From Streptomyces sp. NBC_01317 (GTDB lineage Bacteria > Actinomycetota > Actinomycetes > Streptomycetales > Streptomycetaceae), in assembly GCF_035961655.1 (NCBI RefSeq), contig NZ_CP108393.1, forward strand, positions 5,041,001-5,105,000: a stretch of DNA of 64,000 nucleotides, in the 5' to 3' direction. The notes under the pieces are model-generated. The model was given only the letters and a program-made list of their open reading frames with translations. It did no database searches and had not been told where the DNA came from. Positions 52,997 through 64,000 of the stretch are shown one piece after another. Position 1 is the first letter of the stretch, and each line of letters opens with the position of its first letter. A program made the position numbers and the translations under genes.

Positions 52997-53023
52997 TCAT
53001 GTGCAACCAAACCAGACATTTGG

Positions 53024-53878
53024 CTAGGCTGGTGGCGTCGCAGCTAACACTATGCCGTACCACCAGCCCTCGATGCGACGGTACAAGTCGGCGCACTGTA
53101 GGACTCGCACGCAGAAACACCCGCGATATCTGTCTCCGACGTTCTTCCGGTTGGTCGTGGGGTTGTGCTTCTTCAGTGTGGTCTTGCCGAACGCCTGGAC
53201 CTCGACGCCCGCGACCTCTGCCCAGAACTGCTCGGCGGCGCCCACGTCGGCGGACTCGTGGATCTGCACCTGGTAGCGCAAGCGATCCTTGCTGACGCCG
53301 AGCAGATCGAGCCATGCCAGGAACACTCTGATCATGTTCGGATCACTGTTGATGAACGAGACCCGTTCCTGCGGTCGGTGGGTCTTGCGCTTGGCCCCCT
53401 CCGCCCAGTAGAGCGCGACTCCGATCAGGAAGAGTTCGCGCTCGGACAGGGTGCCTATCTCGGCCGTCGCTTCGCTCTTGGTCCGCTGCCGTTCCACATC
53501 CCGCCGAGCGAGCGTTGCCTCCCAGCCTCGCCGCCCGATCGCCGACGCCTCCTCGCGCGTGCGCTTCGGCGGCTTCGGCAGGTCCCGTACCCACAGCGAG
53601 ATCGAACTCTTCGAGCACCCCAGCTCCACCTGGATCTGGTCGTACGTGAGCCCCTGTAAGCGCAGCTCCCGCGCCTTCTCCCGCAGGTCGTCCTTGGCTC
53701 TCGGGCGTTTGGTCCACTCCGGTGCGGGCTCGCCCCTGACCAGGCGGCCGAGGAGGTCGTTGTTGTGGATCTTGAGGCGGTCGCGGATCTGCCGCAGGCT
53801 CAACCCCTCCCGCCGCAGCGCCACCGCCCGCTCCCGGAGTCCTTCGAAGTCGGCATATTTGCCGTTCAGAGATGTCAT
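53024..53878 (-). CDS. HTH protein with LAGLIDADG-endonuclease-like C-terminal half
   Basis: A 284-residue protein of no named family I can fix. The N-terminal half has two helix-turn-helix modules (EGLSLRQIRDRLKIHNNDLLGRLV, about 25-47; QGLTYDQIQVELGCSKSSISLWV, about 75-97). The C-terminal half resembles a homing-endonuclease fold: LFLIGVALYWAEGAKR (149-164, like the LAGLIDADG helix), FINSDPNMIRVFLAWL, and CVRVLQCADLYRRIEGWWYGI at the end. The acidic catalytic residue is plausibly Glu160. It ends 27 bases before the tRNA-Gln gene on the same strand. Its codons are less biased than the neighbours. It could be a domesticated or mobile element remnant. Confidence 0.7.
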   Translation of the reverse strand: MTSLNGKYADFEGLRERAVALRREGLSLRQIRDRLKIHNNDLLGRLVRGEPAPEWTKRPRAKDDLREKARELRLQGLTYDQIQVELGCSKSSISLWVRDLPKPPKRTREEASAIGRRGWEATLARRDVERQRTKSEATAEIGTLSERELFLIGVALYWAEGAKRKTHRPQERVSFINSDPNMIRVFLAWLDLLGVSKDRLRYQVQIHESADVGAAEQFWAEVAGVEVQAFGKTTLKKHNPTTNRKNVGDRYRGCFCVRVLQCADLYRRIEGWWYGIVLAATPPA

Positions 53879-54021
53879 GCGGGAAATCGTCGTACGGAAT
53901 CATGACTTCCGGCTCGAATGCATGGTCGATTCACCAGTTCGAGTGATCGCTCCCCATCTGTTGTGTCCCTCGTCCCGTCCAGCGCAATCCAGGACACAAG
54001 AAAATGAGTCGCGCCCGCCCG

Positions 54022-54027
54022 TAGGCT
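54022..54027 (+). promoter_or_regulatory. Probable -10 element of the sensor-kinase gene
   Basis: TAGGCT ends seven bases before the ATG of the histidine kinase. GGGAG also lies in that gap, so either a leaderless or an ordinary start is possible. Confidence 0.45.
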
Positions 54028-54034
54028 GGGAGAC

Positions 54035-55366
54035 ATGACCACAACGGGGGCTCATCAGGACGCCGCGGGCCCGACCGCCCGCGGCTACTGGTGGTGGGAG
54101 CGTCGGCGGAGTGTTGTTCTGGATGTGGGGCTGGCCGGTGTGTCGGCCCTGGAGTGCGGGCTGGAGGGGGTCCGGTTCGCGGACACCGCCGCGCTGCCCG
54201 TACCGGTGGGGGTGGTCTTCGGCCTCCTGGCCGGTTCCGCGCTGCTCCTGCGGCGGCGGTGGCCGGCCAGCGTGGTGCTCGTCTCGATCGCCGTGACCCC
54301 GGCGGAGATGGGCTTCCTGATGGCGGTCGTCGGGCTCTACACCCTCGCCGCCTCCGAGATACCGCGCCGCGTCATCGCCTCCCTGGCCGGGATGCAGCTG
54401 GCGGGCACGCTGATCGTCACGTTCATACGGACCCGGCAGAGCGTCTCCGAGGGGGACTTCGACGCCGCCCGGTGGTACGTACCGCTCATCGCGATCATGA
54501 TGTCCGTCGGACTGACCGCCCCGCCCGTGCTCTTCGGCCTCTACGTCGGGGCCCGGCGGCGGCTGATGGAGAGCCTGCGGGAGCGCGCCGACAGCCTGGA
54601 GCAGGAACTGTCGCTGCTGGCGGACCGGGCGGAGCAGCGCGCGGAGTGGGCGCGTACGGAGGAGCGGACCCGGATCGCCCGGGAGATGCACGACGTGGTG
54701 GCGCACCGGGTGAGCCTGATGGTGGTGCACGCGGCGGCGTTGCAGGCGGTGGCGCTCAAGGACCCGCCGAAGGCGGTGAAGAACGCGGCGCTGGTGGGCG
54801 ACATGGGGCGCCAGGCGCTGACCGAGCTGCGCGAGATGCTCGGGGTGCTGCGGGCCGGTGAGCAGGTCGCGGCGCGCAAGGCCTCGGACACGGGTCCCGC
54901 GCTGACCGTGCCGCTGGCGGCGGTGGGGCTGGCGGCCGCCGCTGCCGCCGCCGCGGCGGCCGAGGACGGGCCCGGCATGGGGGACATCGAGGCGCTGGTG
55001 GGCCAGTCCCGGGAGACGGGGATGGTGGTGGAGCTGACGGTGCACGGGGAGTCGCGACCGTACGCCGCCGAGGTGGAACAGACCGCGTACCGGGTGGTGC
55101 AGGAGGCGCTGACCAACGTCCTGAAGCACGCGGCGGGCGCGAAGGTGGTGGTACGGCTGGCGCACCGCGAGGCGGAGGTCGCGATGCAGGTGGAGAACGG
55201 CCCGTCGGACAGCGGCGCGCAGGACGCGGGCCTGCCGAGCGGCGGCAACGGCCTGCTGGGGATGCGGGAGCGGGTGACGGCGCTGGGCGGCGTCTTCGTC
55301 TCGGGGGAGACGGACGCGGGGGGTTTCCGGGTGTCGGCGGTGCTGCCGTACCGGGCTGCGGCTTAG
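54035..55366 (+). CDS. Orphan sensor histidine kinase (HisKA_3 / NarL type)
   Basis: A 443-residue membrane kinase. About four helices in residues 25-170 are followed by a coiled linker, then the phospho-acceptor RTRIAREMHDVVAHRVSLMVVHA (His in EMHD). The ATPase region has QTAYRVVQEALTNVLKHAAGA (N-box) and GNGLLGMRERVTALGG (G-box). Between them is an Ala run (GLAAAAAAAAAAEDG, encoded by GCC/GCG repeats at about 54930-54960), which probably varies in length. No response regulator is adjacent, which is unusual for this class. The signal is unknown. Confidence 0.88.
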   Translation: MTTTGAHQDAAGPTARGYWWWERRRSVVLDVGLAGVSALECGLEGVRFADTAALPVPVGVVFGLLAGSALLLRRRWPASVVLVSIAVTPAEMGFLMAVVGLYTLAASEIPRRVIASLAGMQLAGTLIVTFIRTRQSVSEGDFDAARWYVPLIAIMMSVGLTAPPVLFGLYVGARRRLMESLRERADSLEQELSLLADRAEQRAEWARTEERTRIAREMHDVVAHRVSLMVVHAAALQAVALKDPPKAVKNAALVGDMGRQALTELREMLGVLRAGEQVAARKASDTGPALTVPLAAVGLAAAAAAAAAAEDGPGMGDIEALVGQSRETGMVVELTVHGESRPYAAEVEQTAYRVVQEALTNVLKHAAGAKVVVRLAHREAEVAMQVENGPSDSGAQDAGLPSGGNGLLGMRERVTALGGVFVSGETDAGGFRVSAVLPYRAAA

Positions 55367-55417
55367 GGGGGTGGGGTGGGTGGTGGCACTCGTGTCCTGG
55401 GACGAGGTGGTCCGGGG

Positions 55418-55903
55418 TCAGTTCTCCGTCAGGCGCGTGGGGAGTTTGCCGGCGATCAAGGTGGCCAGCGCCTGGTCGATGTCCGGGCCCAGGAACCAGT
55501 CGCCCGTGTGGTCGATGCTGTAGACCGCCCCGGTGTCGTCGATCGCCAGCACCCCCTGCCCGTCGTCCTCGCCCAGCGGGCTCATCCCGGTCTCCAGTGA
55601 GCGCCCCAGGTCCGAGAGGGTACGGGCCAGGTGGATGCCCGCCATGGGGTCGATACGGAACGCCACGGGGGCTATCTGACGGCCCGGGCCCGGCGCGGCG
55701 ACCCGCAGGCCGCCGAACTCCGCCCAGGCCTCCACGGCGGCCGGGAACACCGCGTGTGTGTGCCCGGCGGGCGTGATGTGGGCGCGGAGCGTGTCCGCCC
55801 ACTCCTCGGCCTGCTTTATGTCCCACCGCCCCGGCTGCCAGCCGGCGTCGCGGAGGGCGGCGTCGATGGGCACGGGGAAGCGGGTGGTGGAGAGGTCGGG
55901 CAT
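55418..55903 (-). CDS. SUKH-3-like immunity-type protein
   Basis: A 161-residue protein (RFPVPIDAALRDAGWQPGRWDIKQAEEWADTL...FPAAVEAWAEFGGLRVAAPGPGRQIAPVAFRIDP...LGEDDGQGVLAIDDTGAVYSIDHTGDWFLG) matching my memory of the SUKH-3 family. SUKH proteins neutralise toxins of several nuclease and deaminase classes. It starts eight bases after the YwqJ-type deaminase stop, a classic toxin-immunity spacing, and it is convergent with the kinase gene. Confidence 0.82.
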   Translation of the reverse strand: MPDLSTTRFPVPIDAALRDAGWQPGRWDIKQAEEWADTLRAHITPAGHTHAVFPAAVEAWAEFGGLRVAAPGPGRQIAPVAFRIDPMAGIHLARTLSDLGRSLETGMSPLGEDDGQGVLAIDDTGAVYSIDHTGDWFLGPDIDQALATLIAGKLPTRLTEN

Positions 55904-55911
55904 GGCGCGGC

Positions 55912-56412
55912 TCAGTTCTTCTCGGTGGGGTCGACCGGCTGCACGCCGAAGTGGGCGAGCATGGCCGTACAGGACCGGCACGGCGGTGCGTAACTGCCGT
56001 GCAGCGGGTCGCCGTCCTCCCGGATGCGACGGGCGGTCAGCTTGGCCTGCTTGAGGGAGCGGCGCGCCTCGCCGTGGGTGAGGGGTTTGCGCCTGGCCCG
56101 CTTGGAGCGGCCCTCCTCGGTGGCCGTGAGGTGGCGGGAGAGCAGGATCGCCTCGGGGCAGCGGCCGGTGAACCGTTCCCGCTGTCCGCTGGTGAGCGTG
56201 TCGAGGAAGTCCTGTACGAGCGGGTGCAGCGTCGGCGGCTTGTCGGCCTTGCCGGCGGTGCAGGTGAGGTTCTCGCCGCGCACGGTGAGGGCCGCCGCGA
56301 CGGCGGGCAGGATGCCGTCGCGGCGCTGCCGGAGCGCGGGCGCCCGGTGCGGTTCCGTACTGCTCCAGCTGAGGCGTGGGTCGCCGGACGTGTCGGTCGG
56401 TGCTGTGTGCAA
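55912..56412 (-). CDS. YwqJ-like nucleic-acid deaminase (putative toxin or toxin-derived enzyme)
   Basis: About 166 residues with the deaminase-fold zinc motifs: GRC85-P-E87 and PPC145-RSC148. The context GENLTCTAGKADKPPTLHPLVQDFLDTLTSGQRERFTGRCPEAILLSRHL fits the YwqJ-related deaminase family, known as the tip of polymorphic toxins. Here the domain stands alone without a delivery region or signal peptide. The start is unclear. I chose the TTG at 56412 because GGGAGGG lies nine bases upstream; a GTG at 56457 is possible. The SUKH-3 gene follows eight bases after. Confidence 0.78.
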   Translation of the reverse strand: MHTAPTDTSGDPRLSWSSTEPHRAPALRQRRDGILPAVAAALTVRGENLTCTAGKADKPPTLHPLVQDFLDTLTSGQRERFTGRCPEAILLSRHLTATEEGRSKRARRKPLTHGEARRSLKQAKLTARRIREDGDPLHGSYAPPCRSCTAMLAHFGVQPVDPTEKN

Positions 56413-56722
56413 AGTGCTGTCCCTCCCGTGCCCGCGGCGGGAAGCCGCTGGTATCACGCCCCCGTGTCGAGGGGACAGCCTGCCAAATGTGACGGGCCGT
56501 GGGAAAGCTGGGGCATGAATAGGGGCGTTCTGTCGGCGCTGGGTCACCCGGGCGTGACCGTTGGTCACGGGGACGGGGAGGGTCCGGCCGGGGTGTGCCG
56601 GGACCCGGGGCCGGGGGTGCGATCGCGGCCCCGGAGCGTCTCGGTCCCCTCTTGCCCCACCGCATAGGCTGTCCGGACCAGGGCTGTGCTGAACCAGCCG
56701 GAAGCAGCAGGGGGCAACCGCC
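56413..56722. promoter_or_regulatory. Divergent spacer between the two toxin/immunity-type operons
   Basis: 310 bp without a gene. TAGGCT at about 56665-56670 is a candidate -10 for the rightward operon, 52 bases before its ATG. GGTCACCCGGGCGTGACC at about 56544-56561, followed by GGTCAC, offers an inverted repeat (GGTCAC/GTGACC) for a shared regulator. Nothing else was recognised. Confidence 0.4.
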
Positions 56723-57700
56723 ATGACGACAGGTCGGCTCGGGCAGCAAGCCGCGCCACCGAACGCGGCCTACGCCGGGCAGGTCGTGCATTTCCCGGAC
56801 CCGGTCCGGGCGTCCCGCCACCCCGGGGGTGTGCGGGTGGACGAGGACGGCCGTCCGGATTTTGTGCCGTACGCGCGTGCCGCGGCGGAGATAGCGGACC
56901 CCCCGGAGGGGTTCGGCGTGGACGAACTGCGGCTCACGGACTACGTGTCGGCGAACGCCGCGCTGGCCGCCGCGGGCCATGAGCTGTGGGACACGGTCCC
57001 CGCGGTGGCCACTCCGCACGGCTGGACCTGGCACCACACGCCGGGCTCGCGCCGGCTGGTGCTCGTACCGGTCGAGGTGAAGGCCCTGTTGCGGCACCAC
57101 GGGGGTCTCGCGACGGCGCGCGTGGACCACGCCAAGCGCGGGACGCGCCCGCTCCAGGAGACGAGGCCCGGCCACTTCGGGCTGCCCAAGGGAGCGATGT
57201 CGGTCACCGAGCAGCAGGTGCTCGGCGTCGAGGAGGATCTCGGCTACCGGCTGCCGGGCGCGTACCGCTCGTTCCTCAAGGCGGCGGGCGGCTGCGCGCC
57301 GGCCGGCGCGGCGCTCGACGCGGAGCTGGGGCTGCTGGTGGACCAGCCGTTCTTCACGGTGCGTGAGGAGGCGGCGTTCAACGACCTGGTGTACGTCAAC
57401 AAGTGCCTGCGGGACCATCTGACGAAGGACTACCTGGCGGTGGGCTTCGTCCAGGGCGGCATCCTGGCCGTCAAGGTCAGGGGTGAGCGGCTCGGTTCGG
57501 TCTGGTTCTGCGCGTACGACGACGCCCGCGACCAGGACGGCTGGAGCGTCCAGGAGCGGGTGGAACGGCTGTTGCTGCCGTGCGGCGACGACTTCGACGC
57601 CTTCCTGCTCCGCCTGGCGGGCAACCCGCCGGAGCTGGAGACGGTGGCGAACCTGATGGTGGACGGTGGCTTCGCCCGCGCCGTCCCGGTGGAGGGATGA
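56723..57700 (+). CDS. WHH-type HNH/EndoVII nuclease domain fused to a SMI1/KNR4 (SUKH-1) domain
   Basis: A 325-residue fusion. Residues 40-150 match the WHH nuclease of polymorphic toxins: GRPDFVPYA, then LWDTVPAVATPHGWTWHH (W103-H104-H105), then LVLVPVEVKALLRHHGG with further His. Residues 161-325 are SUKH-1: VTEQQVLGVEEDLGYRLPGAYRSFLKAAGGCAP...DDFDAFLLRLAGNPPE. Normally such toxin and antitoxin are separate proteins, so this looks like a self-neutralised or repurposed pair. The stop overlaps the next start (ATGA). I recall similar proteins as conserved in Streptomyces, annotated only as SMI1/KNR4. Confidence 0.8.
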   Translation: MTTGRLGQQAAPPNAAYAGQVVHFPDPVRASRHPGGVRVDEDGRPDFVPYARAAAEIADPPEGFGVDELRLTDYVSANAALAAAGHELWDTVPAVATPHGWTWHHTPGSRRLVLVPVEVKALLRHHGGLATARVDHAKRGTRPLQETRPGHFGLPKGAMSVTEQQVLGVEEDLGYRLPGAYRSFLKAAGGCAPAGAALDAELGLLVDQPFFTVREEAAFNDLVYVNKCLRDHLTKDYLAVGFVQGGILAVKVRGERLGSVWFCAYDDARDQDGWSVQERVERLLLPCGDDFDAFLLRLAGNPPELETVANLMVDGGFARAVPVEG

Positions 57701-60700
57701 CCACGATGGTGACCTTCGCGCAGGCGCAGGAGCGCGCGGAAGAGTGGATCAACGGTGAGGTGCCCGGCTACCAGCAGCGTGAGGTGCGGGTACGGGAGTT
57801 CGAGCTGGGCTTCGTCGTCTGGGCGGAGGACCGCGAGGGCGGTCCGGTCTCGGACGGCGGGCGGCAGCGGCTGGTGATCGCCAGGGACAGCGGCGACGCG
57901 TCGCTGTGGCCGGCGCTGCCGGTCGGTGAGGTGATCCGGCGGTACGAGGAGGAGTACGGGGCGCCCACGGACGCCGTACCCGCGCCGGAGGCGCCGCAGC
58001 GGATCGACCTGAACCAGACGTCGTTCCTGCTGACGCCGCCGGAGTGGCTCCAGGAGGCGGCGGACAGACTGGGCATCCCGGACAGGCGCGAGGCTCCGTC
58101 TCCGTCGCCTTCTCCGGAGGACGCGCCGACCGATCTCGTACGCGGGTACGGGGCCGGCGCCCCCGGCAACGGATCGCTGGGCGGCAACGAGTCGTTGGGC
58201 GGCGGTTCACTGGGCGGCGCGGCGCCGCTGGCGGCGAGCGGGGGTTACGCCCCCACCGACATCGTCCCCTCCGTCCCCTCCGGGTCGCCCGGGCCGACAC
58301 CGTGGGCCGGGACGGACACGAACGCGCCGGCGCCCGGCGGTCCCGTACGACCGGGCCCGCAGCCGCCCGTACCGCCCGGGGCGACGCCCTGGACGGGCAC
58401 GGACACAAACGCGGCGAACGACGGTTCCGTACCGCTGCCCCCCACCGTCTTCGCCCCGCCGCTCTCGGGCGCGGACGACGAGGACACCCCACCCCCGGGC
58501 CTGGCGGCGGACGCCCCGACGGCCCTGATGTCGAGCGGCAGCGGACTGCCGAGGACGACGATCGCACCGGCGGTGGAGGGGCCGGGGGGCGGCTTTGCCG
58601 GACAACCCGGCACGGATTCCGCGCGTTCCGGCGAGGGCGCGGGCCCTGCGGGGCTTGGTGGCGGTCCCGGCGCGGGCCACGCAGGTCCGGGGGCGGGTCT
58701 TGCGGGTCCCGCAGGGCAGGGCATAGCTCACGCGGGTTCAGGCGCGGGCCCCGCGGGCCATGGTGGGGCTCCCGGTAACGCTCCCGGCGTGGGACACGGC
58801 ATGGGACACGGCGCGGGTCCGGGCACGGGTCCGGGCGCCGGCCCTGGGGGGCCCGGATCGGGCCCTTCGGCTCCCGGCGTGGGTCCCGCAGGGCCGGGCA
58901 TGGGCCCCGGCATGGGCCACGCGGGCCCCGGCGCGGGGCAGGGCCCCGGCGAGGAGCTCAACACAGGTCAGGCGCGTCCGGGCGTAGGGCCCGGCGCAGG
59001 CCAGGCAGGTCCGGCCGCCGGGCACGCGGGTGCTGGTACGGGCCCTGCCGCCCCCGGCCCGGATCGCAGTGCCGGACCCGGCGCTGGCCCCGGCAGTGGT
59101 CCCGCCCCCGGAGCCCGGGACATCGCCGATGCCGCGACCAGCAAGGCGTACGCGCCTCCGCGCGGCGGGCGTGGGGGTGGTTCCACCACGCCTCCGCCGC
59201 CGAGCCCGCCGGGTGTTCCCGGTGGGGCCGGTGCGGCCGGCGGGACGCCTCCGACGTCCGGCCCGGGTGCGCCCGGTGTGCCGGCGAGCGGCTATCTGCC
59301 GACTCAACTGGTCCCGCAGCAAGGCTCCGACGCCCCGCAGCCGCCCGGTCCGCCGGGCGCTCCCGGCGCGGGTCCCGGTGTGCCCGGTGCGCCTTCGGAC
59401 GGCGGGGTGCACCACGCCGCCACCATGCTCGCGGGCCCCAACCCGCTCGGTCCCCCGCCCGGCTTCCCCCAGCCGCCGGGCCCGCCCGGCGCCCCTGGTG
59501 CGGGCGCCCCGCAGCCGCCCGGCCCGCCCGGTCCTCCCGGCGCGGGTCCCGGCGCTCCCCAGCCCCCCGGCCCTCCCGGGCCGCCGCCGGGCGGTGTGCA
59601 CCACGCCGCGACCATGCTCGCGGGCCCCAACCCGGTCGGCCCCCCGGCCGGCCCCCCGCAGCCGCCGGGTCCGCCCGGCGTGCCCGGGGCCGGGCACGGC
59701 CCCGTACCGCCGGGCCCCGTACCGTACGCACCCGGTTCCGGTCCCGGCGCCGGTCCCGTACCGCACGGCATGGCACCCCACGGACCGGGCCCCGTGCCCC
59801 AGGCACCCGCGTCCGGCCCCCCGCCGTACGGCTACCCGCAGCCCTACGGCCTGCCGACCGTCGGCCCCGGCTACCAGGCCGTCCTGCGCTACCGCGCGCC
59901 CGACGGCTCGGAGGCGCAGATCATCCGCCGCTCGGCGCCCGGGACCCCGCACCCCGAGTGGCAGATCCTGCACGAGCTGCGCGCCCTGAACGTGCCGCCG
60001 CAGCAGGTCCTCGAACTCCACACGGAGCTGGAGTCCTGCGAGCTGCCCGGCGCGTACTGCGCGCGGATGATCCGCGAGAGCTGGCCGCAGGTGCGGATCA
60101 CCAGCGTCGCCCCGTACGGCCAGGACCACGCCAGCCGCCAGCAGGGCATGCAGCATCTGCTCACCCACCAGGGCGAGTTGCACCAGGTCGCGGACGGCCC
60201 GGCGCGCCCCGCGCCGGTACGGGCACCGCTGCCGCAGATCCCGCCCGCGCCGCCGATCCCGCCCGAGGGCGTCGCGCAGGAGCTGCTGGGGGCTTTCGGC
60301 CCGCAGGGCATCTGCCGGTTCGACCAGCGGGCGGTGTCCCGGCAGGGCGTGCCGGACCTCGTCGCGCGCACGCTCGTGTGGGCGGGGCTGCCGGCCGACT
60401 TCGGGCCGTTCTTCTGGGCGCAGCCGGCCCACCCGGTCGTCCCGACCCTGGCCGAACTGGCCGCGCAGCGGCAGATCCAGCCGGCCGCCGACGCGGGCTC
60501 GTACCTCGTCATGGGCAGTGACTTCGGCCGGGCGATCTGTGTCCAGTACGGTACGGCGCACATCATGGCCGTCCCCGTCGAGCCGGGTCCTGGCGGGCAG
60601 TCGGTGCCGCCGCAGTTCGTCAACACGGGGCTGCCGGAGTTCACCCGCTCGCTGGCGCTCCTCGGCCGGATGTGGCGTCTGCGCTACGGGCTGACGCCGG

Positions 60701-60825
60701 AACAGGCGGGCCGCTGGACCGTCGACTTCCAGGCGCAGCTGGCGGCGCTGGACCCGGCGGCGCTGTCGTCGCCGGAGAGCTGGTGGTCGGTGCTGCTGGA
60801 GCAGATGTGGGACGGCCTGCTCTGA
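57697..60825 (+). CDS. Giant Imm35-like / Pro-Gly-rich / deaminase / SUKH-4 fusion protein
   Basis: A 1042-residue protein. Residues 5-90 (TFAQAQERAEEWINGEVPGYQQREVRVREFELGFVVWAEDREG...RLVIARDSGDASLWPALPVGEVIRRYEEEYG) resemble the YrhB/Imm35 immunity fold. About 590 residues of Pro/Gly/Ala repeats follow (GPGAGPG, PPGPPGAPG), plus a repeated VHHAATMLAGPNPxGPP unit. Residues 725-810 look like a nucleic-acid/nucleotide deaminase: H752-P-E754 and C781-ELPGAY-C788. Residues 866-1042 (LLGAFGPQGICRFDQRA...DFGRAICVQYGTAHIMAVPV) match SUKH-4. No signal peptide is present. Immunity and enzyme modules share one chain. Confidence 0.75.
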   Translation: MTTMVTFAQAQERAEEWINGEVPGYQQREVRVREFELGFVVWAEDREGGPVSDGGRQRLVIARDSGDASLWPALPVGEVIRRYEEEYGAPTDAVPAPEAPQRIDLNQTSFLLTPPEWLQEAADRLGIPDRREAPSPSPSPEDAPTDLVRGYGAGAPGNGSLGGNESLGGGSLGGAAPLAASGGYAPTDIVPSVPSGSPGPTPWAGTDTNAPAPGGPVRPGPQPPVPPGATPWTGTDTNAANDGSVPLPPTVFAPPLSGADDEDTPPPGLAADAPTALMSSGSGLPRTTIAPAVEGPGGGFAGQPGTDSARSGEGAGPAGLGGGPGAGHAGPGAGLAGPAGQGIAHAGSGAGPAGHGGAPGNAPGVGHGMGHGAGPGTGPGAGPGGPGSGPSAPGVGPAGPGMGPGMGHAGPGAGQGPGEELNTGQARPGVGPGAGQAGPAAGHAGAGTGPAAPGPDRSAGPGAGPGSGPAPGARDIADAATSKAYAPPRGGRGGGSTTPPPPSPPGVPGGAGAAGGTPPTSGPGAPGVPASGYLPTQLVPQQGSDAPQPPGPPGAPGAGPGVPGAPSDGGVHHAATMLAGPNPLGPPPGFPQPPGPPGAPGAGAPQPPGPPGPPGAGPGAPQPPGPPGPPPGGVHHAATMLAGPNPVGPPAGPPQPPGPPGVPGAGHGPVPPGPVPYAPGSGPGAGPVPHGMAPHGPGPVPQAPASGPPPYGYPQPYGLPTVGPGYQAVLRYRAPDGSEAQIIRRSAPGTPHPEWQILHELRALNVPPQQVLELHTELESCELPGAYCARMIRESWPQVRITSVAPYGQDHASRQQGMQHLLTHQGELHQVADGPARPAPVRAPLPQIPPAPPIPPEGVAQELLGAFGPQGICRFDQRAVSRQGVPDLVARTLVWAGLPADFGPFFWAQPAHPVVPTLAELAAQRQIQPAADAGSYLVMGSDFGRAICVQYGTAHIMAVPVEPGPGGQSVPPQFVNTGLPEFTRSLALLGRMWRLRYGLTPEQAGRWTVDFQAQLAALDPAALSSPESWWSVLLEQMWDGLL

Positions 60826-60867
60826 CAGATCCGTTCCGAGCCTCACAACGTGCTGTACGGATGACCT

Positions 60868-60898
60868 GGGCGCCCTCCGCGTGACGCGGCGGGCGCCC
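60868..60898 (+). terminator. Intrinsic terminator after the giant fusion gene
   Basis: The arms 60868-60881 and 60885-60898 pair over 14 bp with a single mismatch, loop TGA, 43 bases after the stop. Confidence 0.75.
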
Positions 60899-61065
60899 GG
60901 GCCGTTTCCGGCTCGTCTCCCTCTTGAGCAGCGGATTCCGGCATTCCGCGTGCCATGCCGCATCCTTGGGCAGGACAGATGGGCGGAGTGTCGCATTATG
61001 CGCATTTCGCTTCGATCCAGCAGGATGTGCGCCGGATCGCGTTGTGTGCCGGAAGGGGCTTCCCG

Positions 61066-61965
61066 ATGAGTGCTGCTCAGCCGTCTGTTCACGGTTTCGT
61101 GCCCACGCGCGGGCGTGGCTACCACCCGGAACAGGTGGACCACGAGGTCACCACCCTGTCGCGGGTCCGTGACGACGCGTGGGAACGCGCGGCCCGCCTC
61201 ACCGTCCTCGCCAAGCGCATGGAGGGCGAGGCGGCGCTGCTGCGGGAGCGGGCCGAGGAGGTGCGGGCGCGCGGACCGCAGACGTACGAGTCGCTCGGCG
61301 GCCGGGCCCCGCAGATCATGACGCTGACCGCCGACGAGGGCGACCGGGTGCGGGCGGAGGCCCGCGAGGAGGCCAGGGCGGTGCTCGACACGGCCAGGGC
61401 GGAGGGCCGGGAGACCAAGGAGGCGGCGCGGGAGGCGTCGGAGGCGGTGCGGGCGGAAGCGGAGGCGTACGCGCGTGACGTGCTCGGCGCGGCGAAGGCG
61501 CTGGCCGACACCGAACGCGTCGAGGCGCGGCGCGAGGCGAAGGCGTGGCGCGGGGAGGCGCTGGAGGAGCTGCGGGAGATGCGCCGCCGGACGCAGGCGG
61601 TGGTGGAGGGCCTGGAGAAGGGCCACGCGGAGCGGCTGGCGGCGACGGACCGGGAGATCGCCGGGCGGGCGGCGGAGTGGGAGGTCCGTACGGCGGAACT
61701 CTCCGCGTACGCGCAGGCGGAGCTGACGGAGGCGCAGCGCGCGTTCTCCGAGGCGGGGGAGCGGGCCCGCCACGGCCAGGAGAACGCGCAGGCGAAAGCG
61801 GCGGAGCTGCTGTCGTCGGCGGGAGCTTCGGCGGAGCGGGCGCTGCGGGAGGCGCAGCGGGTGGTGCGGGAACACGACGCCTCGCGCGAGGAGATGCAGG
61901 CGCACATGACGCTGGTGCGCAACGCGCTGGCCGCGCTGACGGGGAGGGCGCCGGCGGAGGGGTGA
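61066..61965 (+). CDS. Long coiled-coil protein (DivIVA/Scy-like)
   Basis: A 299-residue cytoplasmic protein. The short N-terminal motif VPTRGRGYHPEQVDHEVTTLSRVRDDAWERAARLTVLAKRM resembles the head of streptomycete DivIVA-like coiled-coil proteins. From about residue 95 almost everything is Ala/Glu/Arg heptads (AEAREEARAVLDTARAEGRETKEAAREASEAVRAEAEAYARDVL) to the end. Such proteins scaffold at hyphal tips, and relatives have been misannotated as cellulose-binding. GGAAGGGG precedes the ATG at 61066. The upstream 240 bases hold the terminator of the fusion gene. Confidence 0.8.
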   Translation: MSAAQPSVHGFVPTRGRGYHPEQVDHEVTTLSRVRDDAWERAARLTVLAKRMEGEAALLRERAEEVRARGPQTYESLGGRAPQIMTLTADEGDRVRAEAREEARAVLDTARAEGRETKEAAREASEAVRAEAEAYARDVLGAAKALADTERVEARREAKAWRGEALEELREMRRRTQAVVEGLEKGHAERLAATDREIAGRAAEWEVRTAELSAYAQAELTEAQRAFSEAGERARHGQENAQAKAAELLSSAGASAERALREAQRVVREHDASREEMQAHMTLVRNALAALTGRAPAEG

Positions 61966-62020
61966 CGCGTTTTCTTCGGTTCCTTCGGTGCGGGTTGGTG
62001 TTCGGTTGCGCTTACTGCTT

Positions 62021-62044
62021 GTCCTCAATCGCCGGACGGGCTGG
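62021..62044. repeat. Copy of a repeat I recall as dispersed in streptomycete genomes
   Basis: The segment reads GTCCTCAATCGCCGGACGGG then CTGG. I recall this sequence as a common intergenic hairpin half in Streptomyces, often paired with its reverse complement. Only one copy is present here, just left of the large palindrome. Confidence 0.4.
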
Positions 62045-62167
62045 GTTTGTCGTGGTGACGGGGGTTTGGGTTTGGGTGAGTGATTGGGTGCGGGTTCGGG
62101 CCGAGGGGTAGTCGTGGGTGCCCGGGTTGTGTGGTTCGGGTGGGGCCGCCCCTGTTGTTGATTGTCG

Positions 62168-62254
62168 CGGGGCCGGGGTGGGCGTCAAGGGCGCTCCTGC
62201 GTCGCGTCGCTGCGCGATGACCTGCGGTCACCCTTGACCCCCACCCCGGCCCCG
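62168..62254. repeat. Large hairpin 1 (left arm of the palindromic element)
   Basis: The arms 62168-62191 and 62231-62254 pair at 23 of 24 positions, with GTCAAGGG/CCCTTGAC innermost. The 39-base interior includes GCGCTCCTGCGTCGCGTCG. Confidence 0.8.
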
Positions 62255-62484
62255 CTAGGGAAGGCGGAGGGGGGCGGCCCGGGGGGAGGGGTCCCCGGGG
62301 GGCTTGTTTGTCCCTGGTGTTTCGTCGCGGTCCGCGCCTTTCGGCGGGGTGTTGCGCACCACTTGAATGGGGCGGTGGCGAGTCGTCTCGGCGGCTGCCA
62401 CGCCGTCTGTTGGCGGGTGTGCAAGCACCGTGTCTGTGGTGGGTGGGTGGTGGGGCGGTGGTGGTAGGGGGAGGCGGCTGGTCT

Positions 62485-62600
62485 GGCCTGTTTCGGTGGG
62501 TTGTTTGCTGTGAGAGCCCTTTAACGCAACACAGGACACAAGGCCGGGTGGGAGAGGCCCTCAGGAGCCCTAAAATCCAGGTCAAATGGGGCATTTGGCC
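62485..62600 (+). repeat. 116-bp direct repeat, copy 1
   Basis: Copy 1 of a unit that recurs at 62721-62836. It runs from GGCCTGTTTCGGTGGGTTG to CAAATGGGGCATTTGGCC. The two copies are the same length and by eye about four-fifths identical, with the block ACACAGGACACAAGGCC unchanged. Confidence 0.8.
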
Positions 62601-63273: not shown

Positions 63274-64000
63274 CTACAACCCATCCACCCCCCGCACCTC
63301 CATCAAGCCCACCGCGAGCGCCAGCGTGATCGCGGTGAGTCTCGGGGCGAAGTCGACCACCACGTGGCCCAGTTCCGGGTGTTCCGCGTAAAGGTCCGCG
63401 AGGGTTTGCGGGGGGTGGGAGAACTGCCACAGCGCCGCCGCGTGGACGCTTGCGCCGCCGATCAGTCTCTTTGCCGCCACAGGTCCCAGTGACGGCAGGA
63501 AGCGCGTCGCCATCGCGGCGAGTTCGTCGAGGGCGGCCAAAGCGGTCAGCTTGAACGACAGGACCGCCTCGCGGGAGACGTTGCGTTCCAGGTTCAGCGC
63601 GGCATGGGCGAGAAGGTCGCAGAACAGGGGCTGATCGACCAGGGTCCTGGACAGCACGTCCGCCAGGCCGGCCACCGTACCCACCGCCGCGCCCGTACCC
63701 ACCGCCGCGCCCGCGCCCGCATCCACCCCCACCCCCACCCCCGCCCCCGCCAACCGCTCCCCCACCGCTCCCGCCCACCGCGTCCAGCCCTCCGCCGTCA
63801 GCCGGAGGTAGATCTCCTCGCGCGTTTCGAAGTAGCGCAGGACCGCCGATTTGTTGATGCCCGCCTCGGCCGCGATGTCCGTGAGCGTGACCTCCCGTAC
63901 GCCCTTGCGCAGCCCCAGGACCCGGGCCGCTTCCATGATCGATGCCGCTCGCAGTTCCTTGTTCTCGGGGCTGCGGGCGCGCTGGAAGGCAGGGAGCTGG
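63274..64000 (-). CDS. TetR-family regulator, 5' partial at the window end
   Basis: The frame stays open to the window edge (QLPAFQRARSPENKELRAASIMEAARVLGL), so the true start lies beyond 64000. The ATG at 63934-63936 is probably internal. HTH: VTLTDIAAEAGINKSAVLRYFETREEIYLRL. The ligand domain follows with LADVLSRTLVDQPLFCDLLAHAALNLERNVSREAVLSFK. Between them is a Gly/Val/Ala repeat (AGVGVGVDAGAGAAVGTGAAVGT), encoded by CCCGTACCCACCGCCGCG-type DNA repeats at about 63680-63760, unusual for TetR. The target is unknown. Confidence 0.85.
   Translation of the reverse strand, partial: QLPAFQRARSPENKELRAASIMEAARVLGLRKGVREVTLTDIAAEAGINKSAVLRYFETREEIYLRLTAEGWTRWAGAVGERLAGAGVGVGVDAGAGAAVGTGAAVGTVAGLADVLSRTLVDQPLFCDLLAHAALNLERNVSREAVLSFKLTALAALDELAAMATRFLPSLGPVAAKRLIGGASVHAAALWQFSHPPQTLADLYAEHPELGHVVVDFAPRLTAITLALAVGLMEVRGVDGL

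Follow-up and report, generated by a model that had tools for sequence, protein, structure and literature searches.

A genus-wide block of toxin-type deaminase, WHH and SUKH domains in Streptomyces that may be a domesticated intracellular module

What is a set of three toxin-type enzyme domains, each with a SUKH partner, doing in a Streptomyces chromosome? The question is raised by a stretch of 64,000 nucleotides (the window; 5.04-5.10 Mb of the 8.07-Mb, single-contig genome of Streptomyces sp. NBC_01317), in which positions 55418-60825 hold four genes, here called P1 to P4, arranged as two divergent, tightly packed pairs. An earlier note made from the letters of the window had described these genes and a following coiled-coil gene (P5) as a compact island, possibly an intracellular system acting in defence or development. 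A Pfam scan and the open reading frame (ORF) coordinates gave the layout below, which bears out the coordinates and the divergent pairs of that note.

55418..55903, minus strand: P2, SUKH-3 protein of 161 amino acids (PF14433, E = 1.8e-52; domain about 55448-55879), present in 58 of 58 loci.
55912..56412, minus strand: P1, YwqJ-type deaminase of 166 amino acids (PF14431, E = 2.3e-28; domain about 55945-56334), with C-x-E and C-x-x-C motifs.
56413..56722, no strand: divergent intergenic region, probably regulatory, with conserved blocks in an 80-sequence alignment.
56723..57700, plus strand: P3, fusion of a WHH nuclease fold (about 57008-57124) to SUKH-1/SMI1_KNR4 (about 57203-57607), 325 amino acids; WHH PF14414 1.1e-12, SMI1_KNR4/SUKH-1 PF09346 1.8e-11, Colicin-DNase PF12639 5.9e-7.
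57697..60825, plus strand: P4, 1042 amino acids (Pfam scan), composed of an N-domain, a linker, an XOO_2897-type deaminase and SUKH-4.
57697..57966, plus strand: P4 N-terminal domain, about 90 amino acids, belonging to no Pfam family; predicted helix-four strands-helix.
58000..59850 (approximate limits), plus strand: P4 low-complexity Pro/Gly/Ala linker with recurring short Thr motifs.
59863..60165, plus strand: P4 XOO_2897-type deaminase (PF14440, 1.7e-37) with HPE and C-x6-C motifs.
60274..60804, plus strand: P4 SUKH-4 domain (PF14435, 8.7e-46).
60955..61965, plus strand: P5, coiled-coil protein, positional counterpart of S. coelicolor SCO3114 (DivIVA_Wag31, 2.5e-5, below cut-off).

The matches for the core domains of P1-P4 (PF14431, PF14433, PF14414, PF09346, PF14440 and PF14435) all exceed the curated cut-offs. 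The YwqJ deaminase, the SUKH-3 protein, the WHH plus SUKH-1 chain and the XOO_2897 deaminase plus SUKH-4 chain predicted by the earlier note are thus real profile matches, and its terminal coiled-coil protein was also recovered, by a weak DivIVA/Wag31 match. Each of the three toxin-type families (PF14431, PF14414 and PF14440) has an adjacent or fused SUKH domain: YwqJ is paired with SUKH-3 in trans (P1/P2), WHH with SUKH-1 in cis (P3) and XOO_2897 with SUKH-4 in cis (P4). The proposed fusion of toxin and immunity parts therefore holds for the single chains P3 and P4 and fails for YwqJ and SUKH-3, which are two genes; and where four SUKH/Imm-type modules had been counted there are three SUKH domains. 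The pairs are compact. P2 starts 8 bp past the P1 stop, P3 and P4 overlap by 4 bp (ATGA), and P1 has a TTG start codon with GGGAGGG upstream. That these families belong to polymorphic toxin systems agrees with the available sections of a survey of such systems (PMC3482391), which place YwqJ, XOO2897 and WHH among the SUKH-associated toxins and report occasional SUKH-toxin fusions; those sections do not mention the P1-P4 locus, and fusions of this kind may figure in the founding SUKH/deaminase papers. The reading developed here, to which we give an even chance, is that P1-P4 form a domesticated intracellular module which Streptomycetaceae inherit vertically and in which two competent deaminases would be under SUKH restraint.

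Is the block an island? It is instead part of the core genome of Streptomyces, about as conserved as glmU. Eighty named loci were chosen by similarity to P3 (84-93% identity) and are near relatives, a choice that favours P3 in comparisons of identity and of the ratio of nonsynonymous to synonymous rates (dN/dS); 58 of them have full flanks and make up the synteny count, the other 22 being too short. In all 58, glmU, prs, a histidine-kinase gene, P2, P1, P3 and P4 share the same orientation and, by coordinates, the same order. Other flanking genes were rplY (57 loci), P5 (57), pth (55), ppc (54) and a helix-turn-helix (HTH) gene (41). Eight more distant loci of the genus (L217-L224) keep the inner order P2-P1-P3-P4; the block is inverted relative to glmU/prs in five of them (L217, L218, L219, L223 and L224), and some are devoid of the kinase, HTH or P5 genes. 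Frequency was scored in a sample not selected by P3 similarity, 151 evenly drawn genomes of the genus that were at least 95% complete. P3 was found in 142 (74-90% identity excluding its own genome; single copy in 140 of the 142), the P4 C-terminal region in 146 (weakly in G154 and G169, in part in G008 and G123), P1 in 143 (weakly in G014 and G158) and the control glmU in 149 (full-length matches of 71-89% identity). The nine genomes in which P3 was missing come in 240 to 1020 contigs each, and P4 is still found in seven of these (G014, G033, G103, G120, G134, G139 and, in part, G008); the five that lacked P4 have 60 to 1040 contigs. Genuine P4 loss in G010 was ruled out, its 14-kb region holding 2267 N. 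PF14440 genes other than the core gene are patchy, being found in 9 of 37 genomes of the genus against 33 of 37 for the core gene. The earlier note had offered missing deaminase or WHH profile hits, or genes that do not co-occur elsewhere, as grounds for discarding it; the profile hits were found and the genes co-occur. Its word island does not fit a block that is syntenic in 58 of 58 named relatives.

Beyond this sample, an order-wide set gave P3 in 228 of 229 genomes of the genus, in all three that represent other genera of the same family (72-78% identity), in all 12 from another family (f3; 39-43% identity) and not in the single genome of a further family (f2), and a class-wide set gave a P3 match in 4 of 265 genomes outside the genus, two of them convincing. 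Besides P3, the three genomes of other family genera have P1, P2 and the N-terminal part of P4 at this locus, and the P4 C-terminal part is present in both of those not interrupted by a contig end; in one locus (L207) about 5 kb separates P3 from P1. Seven 20-kb f3 loci yielded no P1, P2, P4 or P5, and the P4 N-domain was found in none of 14 f3 genomes. In these loci ppc lies directly downstream of P3 (L208, L211 and L214) or about 9 kb off (L209 and L213), and in L210 and L212 there was no ppc within the examined stretch; a gene of about 1190 amino acids adjoining P3 in L208 and L211 was taken by eye for mfd. Because f3 has P3 and none of P1, P2 and P4 was found there, P3 seems, from presence and position, to be the oldest part of the block, with P1, P2 and P4 added in Streptomycetaceae.

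Selection was assessed as dN/dS by Nei-Gojobori counting of 61 sequences (60 named loci having all eight genes plus the window; 59 for P5). P3 had a median of 0.16 and the C-terminal part of P4 one of 0.185; for the flanking genes the values were prs 0.08, pth 0.17, glmU 0.20 and the kinase gene 0.31. By this measure the two parts of the block are constrained about as much as glmU. Between pairs of sequences, the protein distances of P1-P5 follow those of glmU (correlation 0.76-0.86; pth, 0.73; prs, 0.71), and the identity ranges of the samples not chosen by P3 agree with the dN/dS picture. As the ratios lie near those of glmU and pth and the distances correlate with glmU, the pattern fits vertical inheritance under purifying selection with no arms race, P1 and P2 changing faster.

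These data bear directly on phage defence. In an abortive infection system, phage attack would release the deaminases from their SUKH partners and the compartment would die; enzyme-inhibitor pairs having no export signals would suit such a role, as would the putative NTPase genes seen by eye near P4 paralogues (see below). However, defence genes are normally patchy whereas P1-P4 are near-universal, syntenic and vertically inherited, and the five proteins matched no PADLOC-DB family at E<=0.1. We consider abortive infection improbable. A mobile or defence island is ruled out by the near-universality in the genus, the 58/58 synteny and the lack of a PADLOC match. Of the two roles that the earlier note named together, defence becomes less likely than development or another core function because P1-P4 are near-universal, syntenic, under purifying selection and unmatched in PADLOC, where patchiness is the rule for defence genes; near-universality speaks for a role in core physiology.

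Are the enzyme domains of the block still active? Every one of the 94 aligned P1 rows has the C-x-E and C-x-x-C motifs, and every one of the 75 P4 rows has HPE and C-x6-C, after a length filter that removed 3 of 97 rows for P1, 1 of 97 for P2, 2 of 124 for P3 and 6 of 81 for P4 (a few genes are doubled via overlapping loci). The P1 and P4 deaminases are probably catalytically competent, to judge from these motifs. A shorter P4 orthologue (L085, 791 amino acids) was modelled with AlphaFold2 (mean predicted local distance difference test score, pLDDT, 54). Over the deaminase stretch the model has block means of 58-91, and its strands and helices follow one another as in a deaminase fold; HPE lies where one helix begins, and the cysteines lie about where the following helix begins. 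When this model was compared with the Protein Data Bank (PDB) by Foldseek, the APOBECs came out best, followed by blasticidin-S deaminase and, lower, DddA; the best E value was 0.004 and none was below 0.001, so that these matches are supportive of a deaminase fold and not proof of it. Searching solved structures by sequence gave no match for P1 and no relevant match for P4.

The WHH part of P3 has been altered. The toxin pattern WHH...[LIV]H...H-x-G-G, taken from PDB chains and from relatives, has its third His replaced by Lys120 in 99 of 99 Streptomycetaceae P3 rows, and in all 99 the W-H-H ... H ... H-x-G-G set is incomplete. In f3 (20 rows from 13 genomes) the third-His position is His in 13 rows and Asn in 7, and the first His is replaced by Ala, Val or Thr. 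By comparison with the colicin HNH nucleases, the altered positions would be metal ligands. Given Lys120 and the altered His set, P3 is a remodelled nuclease fold that perhaps does not cut; His126 could compensate. The WHH-type Rhs nucleases 8bd1 and 8h8a align with P3 residues 33-122 and 34-129, including VRxDxDGxPDFxPY and WHH, and their VH position corresponds to Lys120; with E values of 0.019 and 0.06 the similarity is weak. Another WHH-SUKH-1 protein, encoded on a 1.6-Mb contig of G019 (L255), shares 38% identity with P3 and has the same Lys at the third-His position.

Paralogues of P4 provide a comparison for the deaminase site. Seven with PF14440 and SUKH-4-type sequence were aligned, of which five (L293-L297) have lost the deaminase motifs: both zinc cysteines are gone in all five and the His of HPE in four. 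The five proteins resemble P4 in combining its N-domain with a deaminase-type domain and SUKH-4; they differ in having a pseudo-deaminase, a short linker and putative NTPase genes nearby. By eye, L293, L294 and L296 adjoin type VII secretion genes, and in L296 Pfam identifies EccD and an ATPase of the FtsK/SpoIIIE type, together with a WXG100_2 protein that carries a papain-fold toxin domain. The putative P-loop NTPase genes, STAND-like by eye, lie near all five loci, although that of L296 gave only a weak AAA_16 match. Judged by their sequences, these copies with dead motifs near type VII-type loci and NTPases are a separate use of the P4 architecture.

Such paralogues, together with the altered WHH site of P3, lend weight to another explanation, that the SUKH domains serve as a standing immunity which neutralises nucleases and deaminases delivered by kin or competitors, the fused toxin-type domains being decoys or stabilisers. 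The SUKH superfamily is one of immunity proteins, PMC3482391 describes both polyimmunity loci and polyimmunity proteins, and the dead-deaminase copy in L296 sits beside the WXG100_2-papain toxin. Immunity to changing toxins should diversify, yet the constraint on P3 and on the C-terminal part of P4 is about that on glmU, and P3 is almost always single copy in the genomes that carry it. Moreover, a decoy needs no intact zinc site, yet both deaminases keep their motifs in every aligned row. We therefore find immunity to outside toxins doubtful as the role of the block.

The type VII-type settings of the paralogues also raise the question of export. In P1-P4 the highest 19-residue Kyte-Doolittle means are 0.95-1.18, too low for a signal peptide or a membrane helix, by a crude measure applied with no signal-peptide program and compatible with signal-less export; the Pfam scan gave no trafficking or processing domain in the four proteins, and no secretion genes were noticed by eye in the window gene list, which was not scanned specifically for them. 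To this extent the absence of a secretion signal is upheld. A weapon would require that P1 or P4 be exported by a type VII or contractile system in the absence of a classical signal, with the SUKH parts as immunity. The domain families, which are those of polymorphic toxins in the sections of PMC3482391 seen, would suit this, as would the P4 paralogues in type VII-type loci; yet besides the missing trafficking domain and secretion genes, the immunity domain is in the same chain as the enzyme and the toxin part is conserved rather than variable. A weapon seems very improbable to us. The resemblance to polymorphic toxin systems with SUKH immunity (PMC3482391, in part) extends to the families YwqJ, XOO2897 and WHH with SUKH and to the order with the toxin gene first. 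P1-P4 have the known toxin-family domains and the adjacent or fused immunity proteins of such systems, but neither a trafficking/processing module nor, by the crude hydrophobicity test, a secretion signal, no variable tip or C-terminus and no patchy distribution; their immunity domains are fused in P3 and P4, and the block is genus-wide, syntenic and under purifying selection. P1-P4 thus look like toxin-immunity pairs, and on present evidence are a core module that derives from such pairs and that fails their trafficking and polymorphism features. The proposal of an intracellular system rather than competition is supported, though not proven, by the missing export segment and trafficking domain and by an evolutionary pattern unlike that of a polymorphic weapon.

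How might a domesticated module of this kind work? The reading given an even chance above is based on the domains, the pairing by gene order and fusion, the near-universality, the synteny, the purifying selection, the intact deaminase motifs and the altered WHH site. Each of the three toxin-type enzyme domains would have one SUKH partner, in trans for P1/P2 and in cis for P3 and P4, and each SUKH domain would hold its partner inactive by analogy with SUKH immunity proteins and toxins. Once some signal had lifted the restraint, the freed deaminases would act in a core process on nucleic acid or nucleotides of the cell itself, while the WHH part of P3 may now serve to bind and no longer to cut. 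A precedent is ComI/ComJ of Bacillus, a nuclease and its inhibitor encoded on the chromosome and serving the cell itself, which PMC3482391 describes as possibly derived from a toxin-immunity pair; it differs from P1-P4 in its protein families, in being one pair and in its known role in DNA uptake.

Several observations weigh against this domesticated module. Two P4 paralogues that lie outside the type VII/NTPase group, L258 and L259, retain all deaminase motifs; the core copy is thus not alone in having them intact, which lowers our confidence a little. P1 and P2 evolve faster than P3 and the P4 C-terminal part, with median dN/dS values of 0.34 and 0.31 (P5, 0.59). Two of the 75 P4 rows are broken: an in-frame stop precedes the deaminase core closely in L095, and the reading frame shifts within the linker in L081. 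L151, removed from the rows, has a shortened P4 C-terminal match. These apparent breaks are either sequencing errors or true losses, and loss would oppose strict essentiality. The P3 structure model is unusable (mean pLDDT 37). Binding of the SUKH domains to their partners is deduced, by analogy, from the pairing, and the SUKH proteins could instead face outside toxins.

What do the other parts of P4 look like? The N-terminal 90 or so amino acids gave no match to the Imm35 profile at E<=10 in the window protein and 15 orthologues, nor did three in-frame P4 paralogues; the best alternative was Ribosomal_L12_N, at E 0.019 at best and in 3 of these 16 proteins. For want of a match to its profile, Imm35 is rejected for this domain, and the Imm35-like/deaminase/SUKH-4 chain of the earlier note keeps its deaminase and SUKH-4 parts only. 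In the L085 model the N-domain has block means of 57-86 and forms helix, four strands, helix, and the linker has no structure. Linker length ranges from 282 to 666 residues among orthologues. In 70 P4 orthologues (L081 and L095 omitted from 72), four classes of Thr motif (TVFAP-, TALM-, PTQLV- and ATMLA-like) recur in 60-69 of the 70 against at most 0.011 copies per shuffled linker; the patterns were picked after viewing the sequences, and the shuffle is no independent test, but that the motifs recur is evident. The ATMLA type has a mean of three copies per linker, a fifth motif, TSFLL, stands immediately behind the N-domain in 68 of 70, and a sixth pattern (f) was found in 0 of 70. The kept motifs share the shape T-x-[LFY]-[AVML] within an otherwise fast-changing low-complexity sequence and are possible phospho-threonine or docking motifs. 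A genome-wide family of ATMLA-type motifs was ruled out, since the pattern had six matches in its own genome (two of them in P4) and the reversed-pattern control three. A more specific proposal, which we hold only tentatively and regard as doubtful, is that two ex-toxin deaminases with SUKH inhibitors, core genes in practically all Streptomyces, target the RNA, DNA or nucleotide pool of their own cell and constitute a programmed nucleic-acid editing or mutagenesis switch in growth or development; the P4 Thr motifs or the neighbouring orphan histidine kinase are possible inputs.

That kinase gene (54035-55366; SCO3119 by position) adjoins P2 in 58 of 58 named loci and is a possible regulator of the module. 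SCO3119 appears among the orphan histidine kinases in PMC9739842, and PMC13170358 gives it as a possible target of AtrA. The 310-bp region 56413-56722 between P1 and P3 is probably regulatory: in the alignment of 80 sequences it has the conserved blocks GACAGCCTGCCAAAT, GAAAGCTGGGGCATGA and CGCATAGGCTGTC as well as the P3 ribosome-binding site. A perfect inverted repeat, CGTGACC-GTT-GGTCACG, was spotted by eye in the window copy. Rfam gave 0 matches at the gathering threshold in 53000-62500, which rules out a known structured RNA there. Control by bldA through TTA codons was ruled out by their near-absence from P1-P5 (P2 0 of 79, P3 0 of 80, P4 0 of 80, P1 3 of 79 and P5 4 of 64 sequences).

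P5 is a conserved neighbour and an unproven candidate member of the module. Its DivIVA/Wag31 match scores 24 bits against a cut-off of 260, and its median identity over the 57 of 58 named loci is 47.8%. PMC2680258 describes its counterpart SCO3114 as a coiled-coil protein with weak FilP similarity; a strain with SCO3114-mCherry resembled the wild type in morphology, and its signal was diffuse. Weak affinity of the protein for cellulose is reported in PMC6224456. By gene position only, P4, P3, P1 and P2 should be S. coelicolor SCO3115-SCO3118, since four gene numbers are free between the kinase and the coiled-coil genes. SCO3115, SCO3116, SCO3117 and SCO3118 were not found in the article texts of the literature searched (supplements lay outside the search), and a search for SUKH or KNR4 with Streptomyces gave, among the matches listed, no title pointing to the locus. 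SCO3113, whose number is next to SCO3114, is described in PMC3878966 as the sole gene whose overexpression is significant in whiA as well as in whiH mutants. At the edges of the neighbourhood, an HTH protein (53024-53878) beside a tRNA-Gln gene, present in 41 of 58 loci, is a patchy gene in otherwise fixed surroundings, and the conserved block ends past P5 (62000-63300), where ORF translations have repeated stretches and the TetR gene at 63274 is found in 0 of 58 named loci.

Toxin-immunity genes are studied as fast-changing weapons, and here an entire genus has three toxin-type domains and their SUKH partners as a fixed part of its chromosome. The intact core copies and the dead paralogues make a natural comparison for the recruitment of toxin parts. 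If the domesticated-module reading is true, old toxin enzymes would have been put to internal use in these bacteria, and what the YwqJ and XOO_2897 deaminases edit, and when, would become a testable question.

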